Origin: a virus
IMG/VR virus record: IMGVR_UViG_3300023094_000017
Span: 1 to 43,037 of that record
Direction: 5' to 3' (one strand)
DNA: 43,037 nucleotides
Under the pieces are notes generated by a model. That model saw only the letters and a list, made by a program, of their open reading frames with translations, did no database searches and was not told where the DNA came from. The translations under genes and the position numbers were made by a program. Position 1 is the first letter of the stretch. Each line of letters starts with the position of its first letter. Of this stretch, positions 5,710 to 43,037 are shown in pieces.

Positions 5710-5720
5710 AAAACATATAG

Positions 5721-5754
5721 CCGCTTTAAAGCCCCTTTGATGGGGCTTTGGCGG
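5721..5754 (+). repeat. GC-rich hairpin of the dispersed repeat family
   Basis: AAAGCCCC (5728-5735) pairs with GGGGCTTT (5742-5749) around the loop TTTGAT, and CCGC/GCGG extends the stem. There is no U-tract, so it is not a canonical terminator. It is nearly the same as the hairpin at 32344-32367 and may stabilise the 3' end of the upstream message. Confidence 0.7.
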
Positions 5755-8537: not shown

Positions 8538-8951
8538 ATGTATTGTAACCCTACTGTATGGGGAATTACGGCCATATCGTGCCGTTTTGATCCCGTTATA
8601 CTACCCCAAAAAAAATTAACAGACGCAGAGAAAGTTAACGCAATAATAGCGTTAACCTGCAATTACTTCAATGTATCAAAATTAGACATTGAAAGCCAAA
8701 GCCGCGAACGGGAGGTAGTAACCCCCAGGCAAATAGCAATGTATTTAATTCATTCACATTGTGAAATAACATTAAAAAAAATTGGTAAAATGTTCGGCGG
8801 CCGGGATCACTCAACCGTTATTTATGCCAAAAATACCGTGTTAGATCTTTCTGATACCGACAAGGTTTACAAAAAAAATGTCGCAAACATTAATACGCAG
8901 TTAATTAATATACAAAACTGTACACAAATACCTAAAATTGTACGGTTTTAA
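8538..8951 (+). CDS. DnaA domain IV-like DNA-binding protein, 137 aa
   Basis: Residues 60-100 carry the signature of the DnaA C-terminal DNA-binding domain: TPRQIAMYL, then KKIGKMFGGRD and HSTVIYAKN, with the GGRDHSTV core at 87-94. Host DnaA uses this domain to read DnaA boxes, but here the ATPase and helicase-loading domains are absent. The protein could mark a phage origin, compete with host DnaA, or repress. It is the last gene before the RNA unit at 9000-9140 and lies about 1 kb before an origin-like region at 9908-9951. Confidence 0.85.
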   Translation: MYCNPTVWGITAISCRFDPVILPQKKLTDAEKVNAIIALTCNYFNVSKLDIESQSREREVVTPRQIAMYLIHSHCEITLKKIGKMFGGRDHSTVIYAKNTVLDLSDTDKVYKKNVANINTQLINIQNCTQIPKIVRF

Positions 8952-9543: not shown

Positions 9544-10348
9544 GAGATTTCAAGATACAGAAGAGTGTAAAAGCCACTTTGTTAGAAATATGCCCGGGCA
9601 ATATAGGGCTTTTTGGTTTTGGCTAAAGGTTGCTTGCGATCACGCTGGATTATGGGAGATAGATTTAGACGAAGCGAGAATGCGAACGGGATTTTTAGAC
9701 TTGAATAAAGAAGATGCTGAGCGATATTTTGCACCAAAAATATTAACTTTACCATGTGGTGAAAAGTGGTTTTTATTGGATTTCTGCGAAGATCAGTATA
9801 AAACAAACACCCTTGATCCATACAGAAATACGGCACATAGAGGGGTAGTTAAATTGCTTCATAAGGCCAGGTTAATAGATAATGAATACAATGTTTTGAG
9901 GGAGCCATTTGTAGGGCTTTTAAAGCCCCTACAAAGCAACTTTAAAGTTGCTAAGGATATGGATAAGGTTTTGGATTTGAATATAGACAGCTTTAATAAA
10001 AAAGAGGAAAATTCGGAAAAAAAAGAAACAAAATCTATGACAAAAGAACCAGCTAAAACATTTAATACACCACTTGCAATTGCCTTTAAGGAATTTAGGG
10101 AGATGCGGGCTAAGATTAAAAAGCCTTTGACAGAGCGTGCAACATCAATGATACACACCGAGTTAAATAAATTGGCGGGCGATAATGAAGAGCTAAAAAT
10201 AGCAATATTAAATCAATCTGTATTGCATTGCTATCAAGATGTTTACCCGCTAAAGGACAAAAAACCATTTACTCAGGCAGGCAAAGCCGGTAAGCTGGAA
10301 GTACTTAGCGATATTGTAGGATCTGCAGAATACAGGGAGCAAGCGTAA
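9536..10348 (+). CDS. Phage replication initiator/organiser-like protein, 270 aa
   Basis: I chose the ATG at 9536 (MAKRFQDTEECK) that overlaps the HNH stop. The N-terminal ~110 residues, with GQYRAFWFWLKVACDHAGLW followed by EIDLD, resemble the winged-helix domain of phage replisome organisers. A charged low-complexity linker (about 145-175) leads to a C-terminal helical domain (KEFREMRAKIKKPLTERA...) like DnaD/DnaT-type loaders. In lambda-like phages such proteins bind iterons within their own gene. Two adjacent dyads and an A-rich stretch lie in this linker region at 9908-10060. Confidence 0.7.
   Translation: MAKRFQDTEECKSHFVRNMPGQYRAFWFWLKVACDHAGLWEIDLDEARMRTGFLDLNKEDAERYFAPKILTLPCGEKWFLLDFCEDQYKTNTLDPYRNTAHRGVVKLLHKARLIDNEYNVLREPFVGLLKPLQSNFKVAKDMDKVLDLNIDSFNKKEENSEKKETKSMTKEPAKTFNTPLAIAFKEFREMRAKIKKPLTERATSMIHTELNKLAGDNEELKIAILNQSVLHCYQDVYPLKDKKPFTQAGKAGKLEVLSDIVGSAEYREQA
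9908..9951. other. Candidate replication origin: two adjacent dyads within the initiator gene
   Basis: A near-perfect inverted repeat (TTTGTAGGG... with CCCCTACAAA, 9908-9934) is followed at once by a perfect 16-base palindrome, GCAACTTTAAAGTTGC (9936-9951). The next ~110 bases are very A-rich. Dyads plus an A-rich flank inside the initiator gene recall the lambda O gene layout. There are no clear tandem iterons, so this remains a candidate. Confidence 0.4.
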
Positions 10349-15107: not shown

Positions 15108-15122
15108 AAGCAAGCCCCTTAA

Positions 15123-15144
15123 ATGCCCCTACAAAGGGGCTTTG
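15123..15144 (+). repeat. GC-rich hairpin of the dispersed repeat family
   Basis: Sequence around GCCCCTACAAAGGGGC folds into a GCCCC-type stem with a short ACAAA loop. It contains the 11-mer CCCCTACAAAG also found at about 9927, 17530 and 28120. It lies where the peptidase reading frame is ambiguous and may mark the true gene boundary. Confidence 0.6.
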
Positions 15145-16102: not shown

Positions 16103-17529
16103 TACTTAGCTTTAAAAGCCACGGTAATGATAAGCAAAAACAGGCTTATAGATATTGGGCTGATACTACAACCAGCGATATAGCTTACGGAGGTTCTAAG
16201 GGATCCGGTAAATCATATTTGGGAGCATCCCTTATTTTTGGGGATGCTTTGATGTATCCGGGCACCAGCTATTTTATAGCACGTAAAAAGCTAAACGATT
16301 TAAGAAAGTTTACGGTGCCGACAATATTCGAGGTGCTTACAAACTTTGGTATTGGGCCGGATTACTACCACTACAACCAGCAGGATAGTATTTTTACCCT
16401 GTACAATGGCAGTAAGGTTTATTTGTTAGAAGCTAAATGGATGCCGAGCGATCCCCTTTATATGCGTTTGGGATCAATGCAGTTTACCAGGGGCTTTATC
16501 GAAGAGGCGGGGGAGTTTAGCGAAGCGGCAAAGAATAATTTACATGCCTCTATAGGGCGTTGGAAAAATGACGAATACAATTTGCCGGGTAAGTTACTAC
16601 AGACCTGTAACCCCTCTAAAAACTACCTGTACAAGGATTATTACAAAGCGAATAAGGAAAATAAATTACCTGAATGGCGTAAGTTCATACAGGCTTTACC
16701 GCAGGACAATAAAAAGCTGGCAGCCGGTTACCTTGAAAACCTTGAAAGGATCTTAGATACAAATCAAAAGGAGCGACTATTAAAAGGTAATTGGGAATAT
16801 GATGACGATCCGGCCACCCTGATAGAGTATAATGCCATAGTTGATGCATTTAGCAATAGTCATATTTTAGCAACTGGAAAGCGTTATATTACTTGTGATG
16901 CTGCCCGCTTCGGTACTGATAAAACAATTATAATTGTTTGGGATGGATGGAAAGCCATTAAAATACAGGTTTATCCGCGTACTAAAGTAACTGAGATAGC
17001 GCAATATATCAAAGAGGCTAAAGCTCAGTATAGCGTACCAATGAGTAACATTATTGTTGACGAGGACGGCGTAGGCGGCGGGGTTGTAGATATATTGGGG
17101 TGCCGTGGCTTTGTGGCGAATAGCCGGGCGATAGTGAATAAGGACGCGGATAAGATAGACAGGAACGATAAAAACGTAGCTGGTATAGATGCCCCGGAAA
17201 ACTTTGATAATTTAAAGTCACAATGTTATTTCAAGCTGGCAGATAAGATAAACGCCGGCCAAATGGACATATCAGCATTAAAGAGGTACGAAGAGGAAAT
17301 AACGGAAGAGTTAGAGCAGGTAAAGCAAAAGAGCGTTGATAGCGATCTAAAAAATGGCGTAGTGCCAAAGGATAAAGTAAAAGAGTTAATAGGGCGTAGC
17401 CCGGATTACAGCGATACAATAATGATGCGTATTTGGTTTAGCTTATTCAAAGAATTTAAGACACCTCAAAGCTCATTGCCAAAACCACAACCCAGGGCAA
17501 TGACAGACTTACCGGATGGTTTCTTATAG
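16099..17529 (+). CDS. terL: Terminase large subunit
   Basis: The packaging ATPase and nuclease. Walker A is GGSKGSGKS at 31-39, Walker B ends in the FIEEAGE stretch at 133-139, and LLQTCNPSK near 166-174 is the coupling motif. The RNase H-like nuclease domain starts at YITCDAARFG with D267, continues with VDEDG (D321, D323) and finishes with SPDYSDT near 435-440. The 476-residue length is complete. It overlaps TerS and is followed by paired hairpins and a promoter at 17579. Confidence 0.95.
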   Translation: MILSFKSHGNDKQKQAYRYWADTTTSDIAYGGSKGSGKSYLGASLIFGDALMYPGTSYFIARKKLNDLRKFTVPTIFEVLTNFGIGPDYYHYNQQDSIFTLYNGSKVYLLEAKWMPSDPLYMRLGSMQFTRGFIEEAGEFSEAAKNNLHASIGRWKNDEYNLPGKLLQTCNPSKNYLYKDYYKANKENKLPEWRKFIQALPQDNKKLAAGYLENLERILDTNQKERLLKGNWEYDDDPATLIEYNAIVDAFSNSHILATGKRYITCDAARFGTDKTIIIVWDGWKAIKIQVYPRTKVTEIAQYIKEAKAQYSVPMSNIIVDEDGVGGGVVDILGCRGFVANSRAIVNKDADKIDRNDKNVAGIDAPENFDNLKSQCYFKLADKINAGQMDISALKRYEEEITEELEQVKQKSVDSDLKNGVVPKDKVKELIGRSPDYSDTIMMRIWFSLFKEFKTPQSSLPKPQPRAMTDLPDGFL

Positions 17530-17560
17530 CCCCTACAAAGGGCTATCAAAGCCCCTTTGA
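17526..17560 (+). repeat. Paired hairpins of the dispersed repeat family after terL
   Basis: ATAGCCC (17526-17532) pairs with GGGCTAT (17540-17546), overlapping the terL stop. TCAAA and TTTGA (17546-17560) form a second small hairpin around GCCCC. There is no U-tract directly after, so termination would be weak or Rho-independent only in part. It shares CCCCTACAAAG and CAAAGCCCCTTTGA with other sites. Confidence 0.6.
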
Positions 17561-17578
17561 AACCCCTTTAATATTTGT

Positions 17579-17609
17579 TTTGTATAATTAAACTATAGTG
17601 CTATATTAG
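17579..17609 (+). promoter_or_regulatory. Bacteroidota-type promoter for the tail block
   Basis: TTTG (17579-17582), exactly 19 bases, then TATATTAG (17602-17609), one mismatch from TAnnTTTG. The first gene starts at 17630. The same -7 box, TATATTAG, is used at 29070-29077. Confidence 0.7.
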
Positions 17610-20671: not shown

Positions 20672-20722
20672 GATTTATAAGATTTTATTTATTATTATGT
20701 ATGTTAAAAATAGTTTTGTTAT

Positions 20723-20857
20723 TTAGTATGCAGATGTAGCATGTAGGCCACCGCTGGCAACGTTGCCGATAAACAAAGCGATAGCCAATATTGCCACCGC
20801 TGCAATCAGATAAACTATAACATCTACTAAGGTTAAGGATTTGATAAACTTTTTCAT
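20723..20857 (-). CDS. Small single-pass membrane protein, 44 aa
   Basis: MKKFIKSLTLVDV is followed by one strong hydrophobic helix of about 20 residues (IVYLIAAVAILAIALFIGNV). It is the first gene after the leftward promoter at 20894-20924 and is co-oriented with the conserved gene at 20384. The positive-inside N-terminus suggests insertion in the host inner membrane. Confidence 0.6.
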   Translation of the reverse strand: MKKFIKSLTLVDVIVYLIAAVAILAIALFIGNVASGGLHATSAY

Positions 20858-20893
20858 TTTGTGTTGATTTTAAATTGTTATTGTTTGATGATG

Positions 20894-20924
20894 TAAAGGT
20901 AATACAATAATTTAATTATACAAA
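20894..20924 (-). promoter_or_regulatory. Leftward promoter of the cassette
   Basis: On the minus strand, TTTG (20921-20924), 19 bases, TACCTTTA (20894-20901). The sequence TTTGTATAATTAAATTATTGT here is shared almost wholly with the rightward promoter at 32394, so the spacer too is conserved between two promoters. Confidence 0.7.
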
Positions 20925-20955
20925 CTTTTTTATAAATAATTATATAATTATTTTA

Positions 20956-20963
20956 TATCTTTG
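20956..20963 (+). promoter_or_regulatory. -7 box TATCTTTG directly before a small regulator gene
   Basis: TATCTTTG matches TAnnTTTG exactly and ends four bases before the ATG at 20968, as at 2485. No good TTTG is present 19-21 bases upstream, so the promoter is incomplete or activator-dependent. Confidence 0.5.
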
Positions 20964-20967
20964 AATT

Positions 20968-21138
20968 ATGGATGAAGAGCAAAAGAAAAAAGTAGGCAGG
21001 CCACCGTTTAAGGATCTGCCCGAGAATAAGGCCGCGCAGCATAGTGTAAGTTTAAAGCCTACCGATAAAAAGCGGATAGAGGATAAATTTGGGAGCTTAA
21101 CGCTGGCCTTAAAAAGTTTATTACATAAGTGTAAATAA
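20968..21138 (+). CDS. Small AT-hook/ribbon-helix-helix-like regulator, 56 aa
   Basis: An N-terminal KKVGRPPF resembles an AT-hook arm, followed by HSVSLKPTDKKRIEDKFGS and a closing helix (TLALKSLLHK), a ribbon-helix-helix-like layout. It is divergent from the leftward cassette and could repress the shared 110-bp region. The -7 box ends only four bases before its ATG, so the message may be leaderless. The fold call is moderately sure, the target inferred. Confidence 0.6.
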   Translation: MDEEQKKKVGRPPFKDLPENKAAQHSVSLKPTDKKRIEDKFGSLTLALKSLLHKCK

Positions 21139-21148
21139 TCGTATATTT

Positions 21149-21301
21149 ATGAACGTACAGGAATTAATTAACGAGCTTTTAAAGATAGAGGATAAAACAC
21201 AAAAAGTTACTCACGATTGTGATTATTCATGGTTTGAGGTAATTAAGGTTGAGCAGATCCACGCAACTGAATTAGATGAAGCAATGATATTATTATCATA
21301 A
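21149..21301 (+). CDS. Hypothetical acidic protein, 50 aa
   Basis: MNVQELINELLKIEDK... is an acidic, largely helical small protein. Its stop is immediately followed by the ATG of the gp10-like gene, suggesting cotranslation. Family unknown. Confidence 0.5.
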   Translation: MNVQELINELLKIEDKTQKVTHDCDYSWFEVIKVEQIHATELDEAMILLS

Positions 21302-22437: not shown

Positions 22438-24467
22438 TTTTAGTACCCGGTAAAGTTCTTTACCCCGATACGCCGCCGGGCCGCGATGCCTACGGCGCAT
22501 GGTTTATAAATATTACCGATGATAACGGTAACCCGGTAAACGGTGATAACATAATCGTTGCTTACGCTGAGAACACTGGTGGAGTGTCGGGAGTTATTCA
22601 GTACGCCACCATCCCCGGCCAGTCATACAAGATTTACGAGGGCATTATACAGCATAACGCCGAGCCTCCGAAGAGCTATATTTTAACAGGAACCAGCACG
22701 CCGGGCACACCATCCCCGCCAATTATACCCGATACGGCAATACAAAGCGTTGATATCATCCAAAAAGCCGACAGCGCCGGGTTAAACGGTACGGTAATGA
22801 TTAATGCAACAACCAGCTACGGGCCTATAGCTTATTACATTGATGATGTTTTAGGTACAGCCAATAGATCGGGGATCACCGCAGGGCCACACACGGCAAA
22901 GGTTATAGATGCTAACGATAACGAGGTAGAGATTGCCTTTACAATGGTTAGTGTTGATAGCATTTTAACAAAGGATCCATCTTTAACCGTAGGCGAAAAA
23001 ACAAGCCGATGGAACGCGGTATTTAACCCGATAGTATTTGAGTATGCCCGCAGGGATTTTGAAGTAACAGCGATAAGCCAGGATGATACCACGCAGAAAG
23101 CAAAGTTTGTTGTAAATACCAATTTGGCCGGCGTTGTAGTTGGCGATTTAGTTTTAATTGATGCAGGTATAACTAACGGGTTAAGCACCTACAAAGGGGC
23201 TTTAAAGGTGCTATCTATTGCGTTGCCCTCTACTTTGGTACTGGATGCCGATTATATAGAGCCGGACACCGTAAGCGGGTTTGTAAATATTGACAGGCTG
23301 CGGCCGTATTACAAGGTGATAACAAATATTAAGTTTGTGGATCCTGCGACAGGTAGATTTAAAACCATTGTGAGCACTAACCGCCCTATCAATGGCGTAA
23401 CAAAGGCCAATATATCAAGCCTATTGCAAAGCATAGTAAAGCCGGGGCCTGATTTGAGCGATTACACCGCGATTAATTACCGGGATATGGGTTTAGCGGC
23501 CAGCTATCAAATAAGCTACGCCGAAACATGGGAGGGTAACACGCCGGAGTATACGGATATCGAAACCCCGTACTATTGTGTTTACTCAGCAAAGCAAATA
23601 CAGGAATACGGAGGAGGCAATTTATTTAAGCAAGTGCCGGCACCAGGTGCAACGCCGGCCGCTAAGTGGTTAACTGATTTTGTAGAACCATCGTACACAA
23701 CCGGGTTTCCTTTTGATTTGCCATTTATCTACAGCGAGATAATGGCGGGGTATGATATTTATTACAAAATAACATTGTTGGATATCAACCGACAGCCGTT
23801 GCCGGATGATGCAATAACCGGATTTTTACTAAACGAGGACAGCAGCTACATTTTAAATAACGATGGTAGTAAGCTAATCATAGCTAAACAGCAGTTGGTA
23901 AACACCCCGATAGTTGAGCGCGTAGGATTAAACCGCCTGCTTATTGATACGGACTTTGGTGATACGTGTTGTTATCTGCAGGTACAACTATTTTATGATG
24001 ATGCAATAACCGGCAATCCCGTACAGGTAACCGAGGCAATTACGGTAAGGGTTGATAAAACATGTACTATCAACCCGGTTTACCTGCGTTGGATTGGCTT
24101 AAATGGTAGCTGGAATTACTTTAGGTTCAACTATAACCAAACGCTTACGCTGGATATCCAAAACCCTACAATCATAAAGGATTATGTAGACGATTGGGAA
24201 AATGCCGAGGGTATAGAGCGCGTTATTAGCAAGGATGCCAGCGAAAAGGTACAGGTTTACGCCGATGCGCTGGACAAAAACGATATGGCGGGGCTAAAAT
24301 CAATCAAATTTAGCCCGTATGTGCAGGTAATGACGCAAAGAAACCCTTTGAAATGGCAAACAATTATTGTAAATTCGAGCACATTTACAGAGGGGGAAAC
24401 CATAAACGAGCAGTCGGAATTTGGAATAACCTATAATTTACCATCTCGCAACGTGCAAAGCCAATGA
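22422..24467 (+). CDS. Large tail/baseplate protein, 681 aa
   Basis: A mostly beta-rich protein with Pro/Gly linkers. Residues about 100-175 look like an Ig/SprB-type repeat (TVMINATTSYGPIAYYIDDV then TAGPHTAKVIDANDNEVEI), common in Bacteroidota surface proteins. The C-terminal part has a conserved-looking region around YLRWIGLNGSWNYFRF. No enzyme motif is visible. Size, position in the tail block and the sibling-sized protein at 25515 suggest a distal tail or baseplate subunit. The specific role is an inference. Confidence 0.6.
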   Translation: MQPNLVLVPGKVLYPDTPPGRDAYGAWFINITDDNGNPVNGDNIIVAYAENTGGVSGVIQYATIPGQSYKIYEGIIQHNAEPPKSYILTGTSTPGTPSPPIIPDTAIQSVDIIQKADSAGLNGTVMINATTSYGPIAYYIDDVLGTANRSGITAGPHTAKVIDANDNEVEIAFTMVSVDSILTKDPSLTVGEKTSRWNAVFNPIVFEYARRDFEVTAISQDDTTQKAKFVVNTNLAGVVVGDLVLIDAGITNGLSTYKGALKVLSIALPSTLVLDADYIEPDTVSGFVNIDRLRPYYKVITNIKFVDPATGRFKTIVSTNRPINGVTKANISSLLQSIVKPGPDLSDYTAINYRDMGLAASYQISYAETWEGNTPEYTDIETPYYCVYSAKQIQEYGGGNLFKQVPAPGATPAAKWLTDFVEPSYTTGFPFDLPFIYSEIMAGYDIYYKITLLDINRQPLPDDAITGFLLNEDSSYILNNDGSKLIIAKQQLVNTPIVERVGLNRLLIDTDFGDTCCYLQVQLFYDDAITGNPVQVTEAITVRVDKTCTINPVYLRWIGLNGSWNYFRFNYNQTLTLDIQNPTIIKDYVDDWENAEGIERVISKDASEKVQVYADALDKNDMAGLKSIKFSPYVQVMTQRNPLKWQTIIVNSSTFTEGETINEQSEFGITYNLPSRNVQSQ

Positions 24468-25377: not shown

Positions 25378-25515
25378 ATGGAGGCGGTTACAATTCTTTA
25401 TTTAGCTTATGGATATTATCTAAAAAAAGGCGATGATAAAATGCGTGAAATGGTAGGCTTAAAATGGAATGAACTTTCCGAGGTGCAGCCATTTGAGTAT
25501 AACTTTAACAGATAA
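25378..25515 (+). CDS. Hypothetical small protein, 45 aa
   Basis: MEAVTILYLA... starts directly after the previous stop and its own stop overlaps the ATG of the next large gene (TAATG). It contains a short apolar N-terminal helix and a charged remainder. The tight packing supports a real gene. Confidence 0.5.
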   Translation: MEAVTILYLAYGYYLKKGDDKMREMVGLKWNELSEVQPFEYNFNR

Positions 25516-27575
25516 TGCAGAGCTTACAATTATACCTAAACGATCAGCTTGCCGACCTTGCCGACGATAGCCCGATAGCGTTAACCTTTCAGATCAACAA
25601 CCTTGCCGATGTAAAGAACCAGGCAGGAAATACAAGCGATTTGTTTAAGCTACCATTAACCCAAAACAACCGGCGTATATTGGGTTTCCCGGATGATATA
25701 TCAGTAACCACAGAGGTACCGTATACGCAGCTACGGGCGCGGTTAATACAGGACGGTGTAGAGGTTATCCCCGAGGGCTTAGGTATCATTAACAGCACCG
25801 ACGAAAACAACGCCAGCGTTACCATATTAAGCGGCAACGTTGATTTTTTTGATAGTATTGATAACCCTATCTATGAGATGGGGGATAGTACAAAGGTTGC
25901 CGGCGCAAAGCAGCCATTTGCCCCGTATAATCACATTTGGAATTTAGCCAACGTTGTAGCAAGCCGAAAGGTAACAAATGGTTACATATACCCGGTGATA
26001 GATTACGGCGGCCTGAGCCCTTTAAAACCGTTTATTGTTGATGTTAGAAAGCTACGGCCGGGTTTCTTTTTGAAAACGATTATCGATCTTATTGTAAGCG
26101 GTACCGGGTACACGGCAAAAGGATCTTTATTATCAAATCCCCTTTACGATAAGCTAATCGTACAGTTTGCAAATGATAACTTTGAGCACGGCACAGATTA
26201 CCAGGTGCAGCCGGACACAATAGGCATGAACGCCACAAGTACAGAAGATCAAGAGGGCGCGGCGGTGTTTGTTGGTTTCAATACAGCCGGCCGCAGGGGT
26301 GTTATAAACTTTGGCCGTACCGATAGCGACCCGCAAACACAATTTACAGGCGGTACAACCTTTACCGCTGAGCAGATAATGACAGCTACCGTATTGGTAA
26401 CTATCCCAAAGCTTGATTTACGCGGGCGTATGGGTTCTGATCCCTGCAACCTTAATATTAATATTCACCTGCACACGCCGGGCGGCGATTTGGATTATAC
26501 TTTAAATTACGATCTCGCAAATTATACACGCGTGCCGGGCACCAGCGGCGGCAGCTTACAGGGCTATATAAATTATGGCAACAAAACGCTATCCGCTGAT
26601 ATTGATTTACAGGTAGGCGATCAGATAACCATAACATACGAATTTTTAGGCGGCGCACCGGGTTACTTCAAAATGTACAGCGGCGCTACACTTTACATAA
26701 AGTCCAAAAATGATAATATGCTGTTTGGCCAGCAAGTGCAATGTGAAAGGATATTCCCGGATATAACCCAAAAGGATCTATTAAAAGACACCCTGCAGCG
26801 CTTCGCCATTATCTGCCAAACTGATAACACAAATCGGGAGGTAACATTTGCAAGCTTTAAGGATATTGTATCAAACATACCAATTGCAAAGAACTGGACA
26901 AACAAGGTAGTTAACCAGGGCAAAACGGTTGCCTTTCAGTTGGGTAATTACGGCCAGGTAAACAACCTAAAGTATAAACAGGATGACGCTATACCCGAGG
27001 GCTACGCGGATGACGTAATAAACATAGCAGATAAGACGCTGCAGGCAACGCAGGATCTTTTTACAGGCCAGTTTGCCCCGAGCCTAAACAGTCCGTTTGT
27101 AGGCGGCCCAACGGCCCAAATATTAAAGCTGGATTACATTAACGATCCCGGATCCTTTGAGTTTAGCATAGGCACGCAGCCGCGCATATTGGTAGAGGAA
27201 AAACGCGCGCTGTATATAGGTAATTCGAGCGATACGGTGCAATTTACAGACGGTAGTAGTACCACATACGTAAACGATGTAATAAGCACCGCGTATTTTT
27301 ACAAGGATAACGGCGAGTTTAGTTTAATGTGGAAAGACAAAAACGGGCAACCAGGTTTGCGGACGCTTTATTACAAAGAGTTGGAGCGCATATTAAAGCA
27401 AACCAAAAAGATAACCCGGTACATAATGCTAAACGCCCGGGATATACAGGAGCTTGATTTGCTTGTGCCGGTGTACTTAGAGCAGGATAGCGCGTATTTT
27501 TACATTAACAAAATAGATCAGTGGATTAAAGGCCGGCCGACAAAATTAGAATTAATAAAACTTGGTGAAATATGA
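25515..27575 (+). CDS. Large tail/baseplate protein, 686 aa
   Basis: The N-terminus (LQLYLNDQLADL...SPIALTFQINNLADVKNQAG then SDLFKLPLTQNNRRILGFP) is a pattern I know from structural proteins of Bacteroidota phages. Beta-rich throughout, with a region resembling a carbohydrate-binding or lectin-like fold around 230-300. No catalytic motif is recognised. It is followed by a homing HNH gene in a four-base overlap. Baseplate or tail-fibre anchor is the most likely role. Confidence 0.65.
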   Translation: MQSLQLYLNDQLADLADDSPIALTFQINNLADVKNQAGNTSDLFKLPLTQNNRRILGFPDDISVTTEVPYTQLRARLIQDGVEVIPEGLGIINSTDENNASVTILSGNVDFFDSIDNPIYEMGDSTKVAGAKQPFAPYNHIWNLANVVASRKVTNGYIYPVIDYGGLSPLKPFIVDVRKLRPGFFLKTIIDLIVSGTGYTAKGSLLSNPLYDKLIVQFANDNFEHGTDYQVQPDTIGMNATSTEDQEGAAVFVGFNTAGRRGVINFGRTDSDPQTQFTGGTTFTAEQIMTATVLVTIPKLDLRGRMGSDPCNLNINIHLHTPGGDLDYTLNYDLANYTRVPGTSGGSLQGYINYGNKTLSADIDLQVGDQITITYEFLGGAPGYFKMYSGATLYIKSKNDNMLFGQQVQCERIFPDITQKDLLKDTLQRFAIICQTDNTNREVTFASFKDIVSNIPIAKNWTNKVVNQGKTVAFQLGNYGQVNNLKYKQDDAIPEGYADDVINIADKTLQATQDLFTGQFAPSLNSPFVGGPTAQILKLDYINDPGSFEFSIGTQPRILVEEKRALYIGNSSDTVQFTDGSSTTYVNDVISTAYFYKDNGEFSLMWKDKNGQPGLRTLYYKELERILKQTKKITRYIMLNARDIQELDLLVPVYLEQDSAYFYINKIDQWIKGRPTKLELIKLGEI

Positions 27576-28105
27576 TAGAAGTTTGGAAAGATGTAATTGA
27601 TTACGAGGGGCTATATCAAGTATCAAATTTTGGCAGGATAAAAAGTCTTGATAAAGAAATATTCGGCATTCCTGGTAGTTTAAGAAAATCCAAGATATTA
27701 AAGCCGTGTTTAAATTCGGGAGGCTATCTTGGTTTATGCTTAAGAAAAGGGGGAAAAGTAAAAAGCCATAATGTTCATATATTGGTTGCTAAAGCATTCC
27801 ATGAAAATAATGAAGATAAAGCCGAAGTAAATCATATTGATGCCAATAAATTCAATAATAAAGCTGATAATTTAGAGTGGAATAGCAGATGTGAAAACAT
27901 GAGGCACGCATTTGATAATAATTTAATACATCGTAATTGCGGAGAAAAGCATCATAAATCTAAACTAACCGCAGAAGATGTTATTAAAATAAGAGAGCTT
28001 TATGAGAATAACGAGTATACTAAAAATGAATTATCTATAATGTACGGGGTTTCTGATACATCAATACATTATATCATAATAAAAAAGAATTGGGCACATA
28101 TATAA
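27572..28105 (+). CDS. NUMOD4-HNH homing endonuclease, 177 aa
   Basis: WKDVIDYEGLYQVSNFGRIK is a textbook NUMOD4 start. The HNH core follows (NVHILVAKAF, EVNHIDANKFNNKADNLEW, CENMRHAF) and a C-terminal helix-turn-helix ends NWAHI. It begins with ATGATAGAAG overlapping the previous stop, like its relative at 24464, and is AT-rich. It is followed by the long non-coding region. Complete and probably active as a homing enzyme. Confidence 0.93.
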   Translation: MIEVWKDVIDYEGLYQVSNFGRIKSLDKEIFGIPGSLRKSKILKPCLNSGGYLGLCLRKGGKVKSHNVHILVAKAFHENNEDKAEVNHIDANKFNNKADNLEWNSRCENMRHAFDNNLIHRNCGEKHHKSKLTAEDVIKIRELYENNEYTKNELSIMYGVSDTSIHYIIIKKNWAHI

Positions 28106-28153
28106 GCCACTTTGCAACCCCTACAAAGCCCCTTTGAAATAATTAAAATAATA

Positions 28154-28185
28154 TTTGTTTATATAATTAAATTGATATATAATTG
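28154..28185 (+). promoter_or_regulatory. Promoter of the structured RNA region
   Basis: TTTG (28154-28157), 20 bases, TATAATTG (28178-28185), one mismatch from TAnnTTTG. Transcription would begin near 28189. No start codon with a sensible frame follows. Confidence 0.65.
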
Positions 28186-28188
28186 TAC

Positions 28189-28598
28189 TCAACAACCATA
28201 GAGCGGGGCATTAAAGCAATGGAGTGTAACAGGGATTAGCAGCCGTCAATATAACCCTGTTCGATGCGCGTGTAGCGATGGAAAACAAAAACGGTATTGC
28301 GCCCCATGATTAACAAAGTGAGTATAGCCCCGGTGTAATGTGCCGGGGCTTTGTTAAAGAGATTTAAGAAAGTGGCTTCGTGCGGCCATATAAACAATGC
28401 CGATAGATCCCCTTATCTATGAGTAAGGCCCGCGCCGATTGTGGGGTTACACAAACGGGTTAAAAGGTTGCTAACCTTGACACCGGGAAAGACTGTTTGT
28501 CATACGTTGGGGTAGCTGTTAAGTGTTTTCACCTCCCAACTTAGTAGACAGCGTAAACACACAAAGCGGGAAGCGCTACACCAGCCGCCCGCTTTTTT
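28189..28598 (+). ncRNA. Large structured non-coding RNA candidate (~410 nt)
   Basis: From promoter to a canonical terminator there is no convincing reading frame but many helices: GGGGC/GCCCC (28205/28301) with GCAAT/ATTGC, AACAGGG/CCCTGTT (28228/28255), TTAACAA...AGCCCCGG with CCGGGGCT...TTGTTAA (28310-28357), ATAGAT/ATCTAT (28403/28415), ACAAAC/GTTTGT (28451/28495) enclosing AAGGTT/AACCTT, GTTGGG/CCCAAC (28506/28535), then the terminator. The density and nesting suggest a functional RNA such as the large phage-borne RNAs (GOLLD, ROOL). I recognise no known family core. Confidence 0.6.
28563..28598 (+). terminator. Canonical intrinsic terminator of the RNA region
   Basis: AAAGCGGG (28563-28570) pairs with CCCGCTTT (28588-28595), then TTT. 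It is a perfect 8-bp stem with a 17-base loop. Confidence 0.85.
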
Positions 28599-28633
28599 AA
28601 TGCACTTCACACAATAGGTTTATAATTGGTAAG

Positions 28634-28663
28634 ATCCCGAGGCGCGAGGCACCGGGATTTTTT
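28634..28663 (+). terminator. Second intrinsic terminator downstream of the RNA region
   Basis: ATCCCG (28634-28639) pairs with CGGGAT (28653-28658) and is followed by TTTTT. With the terminator at 28563 it makes a tandem stop that insulates the following gene. Confidence 0.8.
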
Positions 28664-28676
28664 ATTTTACAATGCT

Positions 28677-28707
28677 ATTGTTTTTAGTAATTATATAACT
28701 ATATTGC
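28677..28707 (+). promoter_or_regulatory. Promoter candidate for the 28730 gene
   Basis: ATTG (28677-28680), 19 bases, TATATTGC (28700-28707). Both boxes are imperfect, but the position after a double terminator and 23 bases before an ATG supports it. Confidence 0.45.
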
Positions 28708-28729
28708 AGCCACTTAATTAAAACAAACT

Positions 28730-29053
28730 ATGAAATACAGATCATTACGAAACATGGGTATAGCTTTAGCGGCTATTTTGGGATTAGGTTCGGCAAGTTC
28801 AACCAGCGCACCAATTTACAGCGGGCCGGGCACGGTTAAAACACAGGGAGATTTTAAGGCACCGAGTACCAGGGTAAACACAAGACACAAAGTAGTTAAA
28901 GAAGTTGGCGGGCTAAACCTTATGGATATGGGCGGTAACTTCGGGATGACACCCAAAGAGTACGGGCAGATTTACGGCAATGGTGGCAGTAAGCGAAGTA
29001 ACCGGCTGAGATACGGGCACAATGCAAAATTAAAACGCCGTGGTGTTTGCTAA
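28730..29053 (+). CDS. Small basic protein with hydrophobic N-terminus, 107 aa
   Basis: The N-terminus (MKYRSLRNMGIALAAILGLGSASS) resembles a signal peptide or membrane anchor. The rest is basic and Gly/Asn-rich (GGNFGMTPKEYGQIYGNGGS, then many Arg and Lys), with one Cys at the end. It forms a separate transcription unit between the RNA region and the tape measure. It could be a virion protein or an exported factor. I recognise no family. Confidence 0.6.
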   Translation: MKYRSLRNMGIALAAILGLGSASSTSAPIYSGPGTVKTQGDFKAPSTRVNTRHKVVKEVGGLNLMDMGGNFGMTPKEYGQIYGNGGSKRSNRLRYGHNAKLKRRGVC

Positions 29054-29080: not shown

Positions 29081-29200
29081 CTCACAAGGGAGTACTATAA
29101 ACAACAAACTAAAACTAAAGCCTATGAAAAGATAAAAACACCTCGCTTAAAGATTTAACTAACTTATCGAAAAAGCTGTACAGAAATGTATGGCTTTTTT
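29081..29200 (+). ncRNA. Short leader or small RNA before the tape measure gene
   Basis: About 120 bases between promoter and terminator, A-rich, with a three-codon mini-frame (ATGAAAAGATAA at 29124). No larger gene fits. The layout promoter, short RNA, terminator, gene repeats what is seen at 9000-9140. Confidence 0.45.
29170..29200 (+). terminator. Intrinsic terminator/attenuator before the tape measure
   Basis: AAAAAGC (29170-29176) pairs with GCTTTTT (29193-29199), with a GTAC/GTAT inner pairing, then a U-rich end. It occupies the region of an upstream ATG at 29190, so that start is unlikely. Confidence 0.65.
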
Positions 29201-29249
29201 GTTATATAACTATTCCGTATATTTAGCCAATAAAATTAGCAAAAAGCCA

Positions 29250-32200
29250 ATGGCAGAGGACATAACACGTAAAATTTTAGTAGACGTTGAACTACGGGCC
29301 GAGCAGGTTAAAAAGGATCTACCGGCCTTAATTGGCGAGATAGACAGACTTACAGCGTCACAAAAGGATTTAGAGAAGCAAGGCAAAAAAAGTTCTAAGG
29401 AATGGGTAGACCAATCGCAGGTACTTCGCCAGCTAAAGGCCGAGGTAAGGGAAACCAATAAATATATTGATAACACCGCCAAAGCTATAAACGCGGAAAG
29501 CAATTCAATACAGCAAAACCGTGCTTTATTATCCCTGCTTACTGCAGAGCATATAAAGTTAGGCCAGTCAAACGGCAATACTAAAAAACAAGTTGATGCC
29601 AGCGCCAAAGCGATAAACGATCTAACCACCGTATTAAAAGCCCAGGAAAAGGCAATCGGGCAAACGTACCGTAATGTAGGTAATTACGCGGATGCTATCC
29701 GGGAGGTTGCCGGCGAGTTGGGTAATGCTATACCAGGCTTTCAACAATTTCAGTCAATCGTACAAGCATCTACTAAGATAGCCGGGTTTATGCCTACGGC
29801 AATGGCCGATATATCAAACTCATTTAAGAGCGCCGGTAAAAGTATAGCAAGCTTTACGGGCTTTAAGCAATTCAATACAGAGGCCAAAGAAACCGGTGAA
29901 ACCTCCGAAGAGGCGGCAGGTGCGGTACTTGAATTAGCAACAGCAGAGGGCGAGGCAGCGGCGGGTGCCGAGGGTGCAGCCGAAAGTATTGGCGGCTTAT
30001 CGGCGGCGGGTGGTATACTGGCCGGTGTATTTGCCGCTATTGGCCTGGCCGTTACTGGTGCCATAGCTTATTTAAAACGCCTTGATAGCGTTGGTGATGA
30101 TACGCAACAACTTTGGGAGGGTGTAAAGGCTGGTTTTTACGCCGTTGCCGAAAGTATAGCAAAAGGTGACTGGACAGGGCTAACAAACAAGATGATTGCT
30201 GCAGGTGGCGAGGCTGCGGCTTTAACGGCTCAGTTACAGGACTTACAGGACGTTATGATATCGCAGGAGGTCCACCAGGCCAGCGCGGAAAATCAAATAG
30301 CTGATTTAATGCTAAAGATGCGTAATAAACGGATAACACCCGAACAAGAGCAAAAATATTTTAATGAAATACAAAGCATATCAACTAAAAATTATGAAAC
30401 TCAAAAAGCCAACGCAGAAAAATTACTTGAAATAGAAATAAACAAAGCTATTGTAGGTAAGAAAATAAGTAAAGAAGATGTTGAGCGCCTTAAAAAAGGC
30501 GGCACCGATGTAGCTATACAGTTAGAAAATGAGAATAAAATTTGGGCCGGATCCTATAAGAAAATAGCGGATGCGCAAAAACAAAAGTTAGCTGCAGATC
30601 AGTTTTATAACAGCGTTCGGGATAGGGCACAAAACCGAATAGATGCCCAGGATTTAGCAAGGGAGCAAAAGCAAACCGCAGCAGCTACCAAAGCGGAGGC
30701 CGATGCACGCAGAGCAGAGCAACAACGCCAAAAGGAGCAGGAGGCTTTAATAGAGGCCGAGAACCTACGTAAATCAAGCGCGGCAAGAATATTAACAGGT
30801 ATTTATGAAGATTACGGCGACAGGGTATTAGCCTTACAGCAAAATTACGATAACCAAATTGCTCAGCTTGATAAGTTTTTAGCTAAAAAGCTAATTAGTC
30901 AGCGAGTTTATAGCGCCAATGCTGAGCAATACACCGCCGAGCATGAAGCGGCAACAGCTAAATTAATAAAGGATTTTCAAAAAAAGGATGCCGAGGCGCT
31001 CGAAAAATCACAGATCGAGCTTGCAAACCTACGTATTGCCAGTATTAAAAATGATACAAACCGGGGCGTAGCTGAATTAGAGCAACGTAACGCCGAGCAA
31101 ATGGCGGTTATCGATAAGTCAAACGATGATATTTTAGAAGCTCAGCGGGCTTTAAATATTGAGATAGCGGCACTAAAATGGGCAGAGCAGGACGAGGCTA
31201 AACAGAGATACGAAAACCTATCCGTACTATTCCAGCAAAACGAGATCAAGCGCGTAGGCATTCAAAAGGCAACTGATAGGGAAATACTAAGATTAAAACG
31301 CAAAGCCGCCAACGATCAGCAGGCGGTAGAGTTGGAAGCTGCGGTATTAAAGGCAAAAAAAGGTGCTAATTTATTTAGCAATGGCGGTGCTCAATCAGCA
31401 GAGGCGGCCGCAATCACTCAAAGGTATGATTTTGAAATAAGCGAGGCAAAGCGGGCAGGCAAAACTACCGTATTACTGGAAGAGCAGAAAGCCCAGGCAA
31501 TAAAGGAGATTAACGACCGGTACCGCAATGAGAAAATAGAGTATGCAGTACAGGCAGAGCAGCTAATACAAAGCACGGCGTTTGATATTATTACTCAGGG
31601 CGTACAGCAGGCGAGTGATGCAAAGCTAAGGTTATTGGATGCTCAAAAAAGCGCAGAGCTTGATAACGCCAGTTTAACGGCTACGCAAAAACGATTAATT
31701 GAAAACAAATACGCCAACCTCGAAAAGCAGGAAAAAATAAAGGCGTTCAAGGCAAACCAAAAGTTACAGGCCGCCAACGCATTTATAAACGGTGCCGTGG
31801 CAGTTTTAAAGAATAACGCCGAGTTGGGATTTTTACCGGCCATACCTATTAATGCGCTCACCATCGCAACAACGGTTGCCAGCATAGCAAAAATACTGAG
31901 CGCAAAGCCGGGGTTTGCTACGGGCGGTATGTTTGAGAGTGACGGTAAAGGCGCGATGTTACCCGGCTACAGCAAAAGCGATAACACCAACGCCCGGTTA
32001 AGATCCGGTGAGGCGGTAGTAGTAAGCGAGGCAATGCGGGTGCCGTGGGCGCGTAACCAGGTAAGCCGAATAAATGAAATGTTCGGCGGCCGCTCATTCT
32101 CTACACCATCCGGGCCAAAGCCTGCGTTTGCAACCGGGGGTATATTTACAGATGGTGGCAACGCAAACCGTTACTATAATCAGCCGGTAGTACAAACCGA

Positions 32201-32324
32201 GGGGCTGGCCAATAGTTTAGCTTACCAGCTTATAAATAATTTCCCTCCAATATTTACAGATGTTAAGGACGTTATAGATCAGATAGGAATTAAAAACCAA
32301 ACCCTCGACAGGGTAACTTTATAA
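29250..32324 (+). CDS. Tail tape measure protein, 1024 aa
   Basis: The tape measure sets tail length and fills the tail tube. I place the start at 29250 (MAEDITRKIL) because an ATG 20 codons upstream lies in a terminator loop. Residues 1-150 are a long coiled coil, 210-280 hold Gly/Ala-rich hydrophobic segments (GGILAGVFAAIGLAVTGAIA), 340-780 are again long charged helices, and the C-terminus has the FATGGMF...LRSGEAVVVSEAM pattern of Bacteroidota tape measures. The length predicts a tail of about 150 nm if the usual 1.5 Å per residue applies. Confidence 0.88.
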   Translation: MAEDITRKILVDVELRAEQVKKDLPALIGEIDRLTASQKDLEKQGKKSSKEWVDQSQVLRQLKAEVRETNKYIDNTAKAINAESNSIQQNRALLSLLTAEHIKLGQSNGNTKKQVDASAKAINDLTTVLKAQEKAIGQTYRNVGNYADAIREVAGELGNAIPGFQQFQSIVQASTKIAGFMPTAMADISNSFKSAGKSIASFTGFKQFNTEAKETGETSEEAAGAVLELATAEGEAAAGAEGAAESIGGLSAAGGILAGVFAAIGLAVTGAIAYLKRLDSVGDDTQQLWEGVKAGFYAVAESIAKGDWTGLTNKMIAAGGEAAALTAQLQDLQDVMISQEVHQASAENQIADLMLKMRNKRITPEQEQKYFNEIQSISTKNYETQKANAEKLLEIEINKAIVGKKISKEDVERLKKGGTDVAIQLENENKIWAGSYKKIADAQKQKLAADQFYNSVRDRAQNRIDAQDLAREQKQTAAATKAEADARRAEQQRQKEQEALIEAENLRKSSAARILTGIYEDYGDRVLALQQNYDNQIAQLDKFLAKKLISQRVYSANAEQYTAEHEAATAKLIKDFQKKDAEALEKSQIELANLRIASIKNDTNRGVAELEQRNAEQMAVIDKSNDDILEAQRALNIEIAALKWAEQDEAKQRYENLSVLFQQNEIKRVGIQKATDREILRLKRKAANDQQAVELEAAVLKAKKGANLFSNGGAQSAEAAAITQRYDFEISEAKRAGKTTVLLEEQKAQAIKEINDRYRNEKIEYAVQAEQLIQSTAFDIITQGVQQASDAKLRLLDAQKSAELDNASLTATQKRLIENKYANLEKQEKIKAFKANQKLQAANAFINGAVAVLKNNAELGFLPAIPINALTIATTVASIAKILSAKPGFATGGMFESDGKGAMLPGYSKSDNTNARLRSGEAVVVSEAMRVPWARNQVSRINEMFGGRSFSTPSGPKPAFATGGIFTDGGNANRYYNQPVVQTEGLANSLAYQLINNFPPIFTDVKDVIDQIGIKNQTLDRVTL

Positions 32325-32343
32325 AGCACCTTTAAAGCAGTTA

Positions 32344-32370
32344 CAAAGCCGCTTTGATGGGGCTTTGCTA
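32344..32370 (+). terminator. Hairpin terminator after the tape measure (dispersed repeat family)
   Basis: CAAAGCC (32344-32350) pairs with GGCTTTG (32361-32367), followed by a short T-rich run. CTTTGATGGGGCTTTG is shared with the hairpin after the exonuclease gene at 5735-5750. Confidence 0.65.
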
Positions 32371-32393
32371 TTTGTATATAATTATATAATTTA

Positions 32394-32425
32394 TTTGTAT
32401 AATTAAATTATTGTGATTAATATTG
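32394..32425 (+). promoter_or_regulatory. Promoter at the start of the head block
   Basis: TTTG (32394-32397), 20 bases, TAATATTG (32418-32425). The gene starts at 32448. The spacer matches the leftward promoter at 20894-20924 over about 17 bases. Confidence 0.7.
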
Positions 32426-42729: not shown

Positions 42730-43037
42730 TGACCGTGCAGGTAGCGAGAACACAAATTAAATTAGGATGGGAGGCGGCCGCCGCAATCGTTTTGTTTTTA
42801 ATTACAACTACTTTCGGCGTTGGTTATGGGTTTTCAAAATTCATGGCCAGGCAAGACGAAATTTACAGGATAGTAACCAAGCTCGACAGGAACGACAGTT
42901 TAAACACCGTCTTTAAACAACAGGTCGTTTTAGATATGAGTTATCAAAAAAAAAGTATTGATAGCTTGAAAGCGAGCAAAACAGCATACACCGGGCAGCA
43001 GGTGCAGAGGTACTATACAGAGCGGAGGGTAAACGGC
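42729..43037 (+). CDS. N-terminal part of a membrane-anchored lysis-cassette protein (continues at 1-172)
   Basis: The reading frame begins in the TAATG overlap with the endolysin and runs off the window. A short cytoplasmic start (MTVQVARTQIKL) and a transmembrane helix at about 14-36 (AAAAIVLFLITTTFGVGYGF) lead to a charged, coiled tail. Because the last 127 bases equal the first 127, the frame resumes at position 2 and stops at 172, giving 117 residues. An inner-membrane spanin-like role is suggested by order (holin, endolysin, then this) but not proven. Confidence 0.8.
   Translation, partial: MTVQVARTQIKLGWEAAAAIVLFLITTTFGVGYGFSKFMARQDEIYRIVTKLDRNDSLNTVFKQQVVLDMSYQKKSIDSLKASKTAYTGQQVQRYYTERRVNG
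42911..43037 (+). repeat. Terminal repeat identical to bases 1-127
   Basis: Exactly 127 bases at the window's right end repeat its left end. That length equals a common assembler k-mer size, so it is most simply the overlap of a circular contig rather than a biological terminal repeat. Confidence 0.95.

Follow-up and report, generated by a model that had tools for sequence, protein, structure and literature searches.

What is carried by a stretch of phage DNA that lies between two tail genes, holds no plausible reading frame and yet has its own signals for starting and stopping transcription? The question is raised by positions 28106-28729 of a viral record of 43,037 bases, the whole of which is called the window here. 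The record has identical 127-bp direct terminal repeats at 1-127 and 42911-43037, and because of this repeat it is probably complete, with a genome of about 42.9 kb; the host of the phage is probably a member of Bacteroidota. Noncoding RNAs described from Bacteroidota phages are, as far as we are aware, few. Judging from the sequence, we consider it reasonably probable that an autonomous gene for a noncoding RNA sits here as moron-like cargo between the two tail genes, and quite likely that the region is real and a transcription unit.

A variable slot between two tail genes

The slot, its borders and its contents in the studied phage are as follows.

25515-27575, plus strand: tail gene, left border of the cargo slot, with about 50-56% identity to relatives
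27572-28105, plus strand: NUMOD4/HNH homing-endonuclease-like gene (Pfam NUMOD4 3e-15, HNH_3 4e-6)
28190-28598, plus strand: candidate noncoding RNA of about 409 nt, proposed from promoter, terminators, non-coding character, GC of 0.48 and lack of a family match
28730-29053, plus strand: 107-aa gene with a signal-peptide-like start
29190-32324, plus strand: tape-measure-like gene, right border of the slot, recognized by position, length and partial similarity

The NUMOD4/HNH gene upstream of the candidate RNA encodes 177 aa, and its start overlaps the stop of the tail gene. HNH-like endonuclease genes as a whole are unusually numerous for a 43-kb phage (1041-1583, 3086-3481, 7897-8526, 9163-9543, 14505-14924, 24464-24994 and 27572-28105; two confirmed by Pfam, the rest assigned by eye). 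In another part of the genome, the protein at 8538-8951 is for the most part a C-terminal DNA-binding domain of DnaA (Pfam Bac_DnaA_C, 6e-27) and lacks the ATPase part. As for the 107-aa gene downstream, it gave no Pfam or PHROG match, and no relative of it was found among phage records, viral contigs or the loci of relatives.

We compared 71 related loci, a set that includes some overlapping copies of one contig. Their slots vary in content and in length, from -9 nt, with the tail gene and the tape-measure gene touching, up to 4484 nt. The HNH gene and the 107-aa gene are both missing from all 71 slots, and the RNA is likewise unseen there. Since the related slots vary and lack the RNA together with both neighbouring genes, the candidate RNA is, by this comparison of sequences, lineage-specific cargo in a hypervariable slot.

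Relatives carry two to four tandem promoter modules downstream of the tape-measure gene, mostly before capsid or protease genes (L016 5729-6377, L071 14313-15000, L031 5736-6265, L087 12361-12724, L004 13037-13449 and other loci). The module consists of a palindrome, CTGACAAAACA.TGTCA, a fixed 20 nt and then a CCGAnnTTTG-like -7 box; at least three copies occur in 23 related loci, and the studied phage is entirely without it. The gaps of 400-690 nt behind the tape-measure gene in relatives, considered as places of a displaced RNA, were rejected as such, these gaps being tandem promoter arrays.

A probable transcription unit without a reading frame

There is no ORF of at least 60 aa in 28106-28729, the longest one with a common start codon being of 53 aa on the minus strand. 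Under a frame-specific coding model, which was trained on the phage's own genes and scored in bits per 100 nt, all six frames are negative across 28106-28705, and the true genes of the phage, scored by leave-one-out, have a mean of +8.5 and a 5th percentile of +0.7. Read-through translations of the region gave no convincing Pfam or PHROGs family match. The GC content of 28190-28598 is 0.48, versus 0.34 in the other gaps of the phage. A previous sequence-only reading of this DNA described the region as the longest gene-free stretch of the genome, with no plausible reading frame; the latter is what the ORF and coding scores indicate, and the former stands because the rival gap of about 630 nt, at 20672-21301, has small ORFs that look coding-like when scored in this way.

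The signals of the region and the sequences related to them are these.

28104-28134, plus strand: repeat array upstream of the promoter, made of 11-nt units with AAGCCACTTT and CAAAGCCCCTT half-sites
5716-5750, 9910-9955, 15110-15144, 17525-17581, 23183-23219 and 32322-32367: other clusters of the 11-nt units
28154-28185, plus strand: promoter, with a -33 TTTG at 28154-28157, a 20-nt spacer and a -7 box TATAATTG at 28178-28185
28564-28598, plus strand: intrinsic terminator 1, AAGCGGG...CCCGCTTTTTT, -15 kcal/mol, z -3.2
28631-28661, plus strand: intrinsic terminator 2, AAGATCCCG...CGGGATTTTTT, -16.4 kcal/mol, z -3.2
28678-28706, plus strand: promoter-like sequence of the 107-aa gene, TTG...TATATTG, a pattern match only

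The promoter consensus of Bacteroides is TTTG / TAnnTTTG (quoted in PMC7366714); the -7 box here is one base off this consensus and the remainder of the promoter agrees with it, the predicted transcription start being about 28190-28193. The pattern TTTG-N19/20-TA-N3-TTG has four plus-strand matches in the genome versus 0.9 expected, and when the AT-rich 87 nt around it are shuffled it arises in 0.3% of cases, so that the Bacteroidota promoter named in the previous reading is borne out by its motif at a local chance of about 0.003. Genes elsewhere in the phage have the block around the promoter upstream of them too (2434-2469, 17547-17592 and 32378-32409), and the putative promoter at 28154 is of the same kind as the other promoters of the phage. 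Regarding the array before it, the 11-nt units have the consensus TAAAGCCCCTT and form clusters across the phage, with 54 near-matches versus 22 expected. Three arrays directly precede promoters of the same type, namely the one at 28154 and those at 17549-17600 and 32394, and the units often form imperfect 22-bp palindromes, AAAGCCCC-N6-GGGGCTTT. A phage regulator may bind these dispersed arrays, which resemble operators and may belong to a single regulon. A special long-range helix was considered for the inverted 10-nt matches that 28104-28132 has with 28345-28378; the dispersed repeat family explains them better.

At the other end of the unit, the terminator at 28564-28598, previously called perfect, is real, and a second one at 28631-28661 had been missed; the 3'-end of the RNA could therefore be near 28598 or, alternatively, near 28662. 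Because the region is non-coding yet has start and stop signals of its own, it is probably a small RNA gene, and the sequence gives good support to the proposal of an RNA gene that has a promoter and a terminator to itself.

The same signals could be read at the level of DNA, with stacked terminators and operator repeats that part the cargo from the tail operon and a transcript that is a functionless by-product. In line with such an insulating region, 3 of the phage's 13 plus-strand terminator-like hairpins fall within 330 nt here, repeat half-sites stand upstream, and inverted matches to these half-sites (GGGGCTTTG/AAAGTGGCTT) lie inside the region. However, far less than 410 nt would suffice for insulation, which would also not explain why the hairpins are separated by GC-rich, non-repeat sequence, and we regard this reading as unlikely.

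Quite unlikely, in our view, is a 5' leader of about 540 nt belonging to the 107-aa gene at 28730, in which the tandem terminators would be an attenuator gating that gene. The gene shares the strand of the promoter at 28154 and has the terminators between itself and that promoter, and alternative pairings overlapping near 28201-28207 could compete with terminator 1; but a leader transcript would have two strong terminators in its path, no riboswitch family was matched, and 28678-28706 looks like a promoter, probably a separate one for this gene.

Predicted fold and searches for relatives

The main elements of the predicted fold are the following.

28230-28257, plus strand: 5' side of a predicted long-range helix, 14 + 6 bp with 28457-28479
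28310-28357, plus strand: central hairpin, a AGCCCCGGT/GCCGGGGCT stem with a TTAACAA/TTGTTAA extension, -20.7 kcal/mol, z -3.8 to -4.2
28457-28479, plus strand: 3' side of the long-range helix, predicted partner of 28230-28257

There are three strong hairpins, the central arm and the two terminators, with z from -3.2 to -4.2. The minimum free energy of the whole RNA has a z of -1.2 for 28190-28598 and of -1.9 for 28190-28665, and when the arm and the terminators are removed, the 5' part has -0.1, the 3' part +0.7 and both combined +0.19, which is the level of shuffled sequence. Helices of at least 7 bp number four versus 2.0 expected (P 0.13). The GC-rich arm at 28326-28350 with its flanking TTAACAA/TTGTTAA, pointed out in the sequence-only reading, is real by its hairpin z of -3.8; the eight or more helices reported along with it are not above chance, and the idea of a large, elaborately structured and possibly new class of RNA finds no support in a fold that is that of shuffled sequence outside the three hairpins.

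The pairing of the 5' part with the 3' part is mildly unusual in the model (P about 0.02-0.03). Two helices, one of 14 bp (28230-28244/28466-28479) and one of 6 bp (28252-28257/28457-28462), are predicted with pair probabilities of 0.95-0.99 and make up most of the 5'/3' complementarity, which was chosen post hoc and exceeds that of shuffles and of other phage DNA with P of 0.026, 0.015 and 0.020. The predicted pairing 28224-28257/28457-28483 encloses the central hairpin and for this reason mildly favours one long RNA, as had been argued from the arm being internal. It is only mildly favoured because the arm is a possible weak terminator too (GGGGCTTTGTTAA); the hairpin ends in CTTTGTTAA and could stop some transcripts near 28357.

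Turning to known families, a cmscan of the region against all of Rfam at gathering and permissive thresholds, the check suggested with the previous reading, gave chance matches only and no family. GOLLD (RF02032) has no match at E up to 10 in the phage's own record and none at the gathering score; ROOL (RF03087) has none at E up to 10, with cmscan likewise empty and the control genomes also without this family, so that the covariance models agree with the earlier statement that no core of either RNA is present. The group I intron model (RF00028) is unmatched here, though it matches in control genomes, and the genes flanking the candidate RNA are complete, not interrupted as for a group I intron. 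The model of HEARO, the IscB-associated RNA (RF02033), is also unmatched, and the neighbour is the NUMOD4/HNH protein, not IscB. ARAGORN found no tRNA in the whole 43-kb genome, and a tRNA-like reading was rejected. A replication origin was rejected as well, since DnaA-like boxes do not cluster in the region and the GC skew does not turn there.

With regard to homologues, blastn against phage and plasmid records detected no similar DNA, blastn and nhmmer over about 130 related loci did not find the candidate RNA, and a search of 50 whole related records yielded no homologue of it, in collections that may leave out the closest siblings of the phage. Scans of viral contigs and genome contigs with back-translated pseudo-peptides of the RNA gave nothing real, in pattern scans that require near-exact 24-base matches and would miss relatives below about 85-90% identity; the single genome-contig match (Endomicrobiales, L066) is spurious, with no DNA similarity.

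There is only a slim chance that the region is what remains of a decayed insertion or cargo gene, such as an intron-like segment that came with the adjoining HNH gene: the NUMOD4/HNH gene does lie directly upstream, this phage has several HNH genes, and the GC of the region is similar to that of coding DNA, but no residual codon signal is left in any frame, the read-through frames are without a protein-family match, neither group I intron nor HEARO is matched, and the promoter and terminators are intact.

A possible role and its parallels

Leader, insulator and decayed insert each leave more unexplained than a noncoding RNA gene does, and we lean towards a functional noncoding RNA. In the mechanism that we propose, the host-type promoter at 28154-28185, standing behind the shared repeat array, would start transcription near 28190. 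Terminator 1 (about 28598) would end the transcript of about 409 nt, which has no reading frame, and terminator 2 (about 28662) would serve as a backup. Since the promoter is one of a shared set, it may be active late in infection, jointly with the rest of the set. The RNA would fold into a domain in which the pairing 28224-28257/28457-28483 closes around the strong central hairpin, and it may act in trans, on a host factor or host RNA rather than on phage genes. When antisense pairing to phage translation starts was examined, the best z among 60 genes was -1.6 and none was above chance; because no phage translation start pairs unusually with the RNA, a host target or an RNA-intrinsic role appears more likely than control of phage genes.

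Morons are autonomous cargo units between structural genes, as in lambdoid phages, and they usually carry protein genes. The candidate is similar to them in having its own promoter and terminator, in lying between late genes and in being missing from relatives, in which the slot goes from empty to 4.5 kb; it differs in that the unit has no reading frame. With GOLLD and ROOL it shares being a phage-borne, long and apparently noncoding RNA of unknown function, but it is smaller, has no covariance-model match and does not fold elaborately beyond chance. tRNA islands are frequent neighbours of GOLLD and ROOL (PMC12286853), whereas the phage of the candidate has no tRNA genes.

Intergenic sRNAs of Bacteroidota, such as GibS of Bacteroides thetaiotaomicron, are like the candidate in their host-type promoter, intrinsic terminator and lack of a reading frame; the candidate differs in being phage-encoded and predicted from its sequence, the sequence comparison with these sRNAs being through Rfam only. 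In Bacteroides thetaiotaomicron, the high-confidence intergenic sRNAs have a promoter and a terminator, northern blots showed 9 of the 11 tested, long stretches of several sRNAs are unfolded, and strain-specific ones make up 27 of the 49 in the high-confidence set (PMC7366714).

It is a long shot that the candidate, at about 410 nt and with a long-range helix closing a domain around its strong central arm, stands for a new class of structured phage RNAs of medium size, which would act on the host late in infection and be passed among phages of Bacteroidota as cargo. If the noncoding RNA gene is true, tail-gene slots would trade RNA genes besides protein genes, and the candidate offers a concrete target for RNA-seq in a little-studied group of phages.
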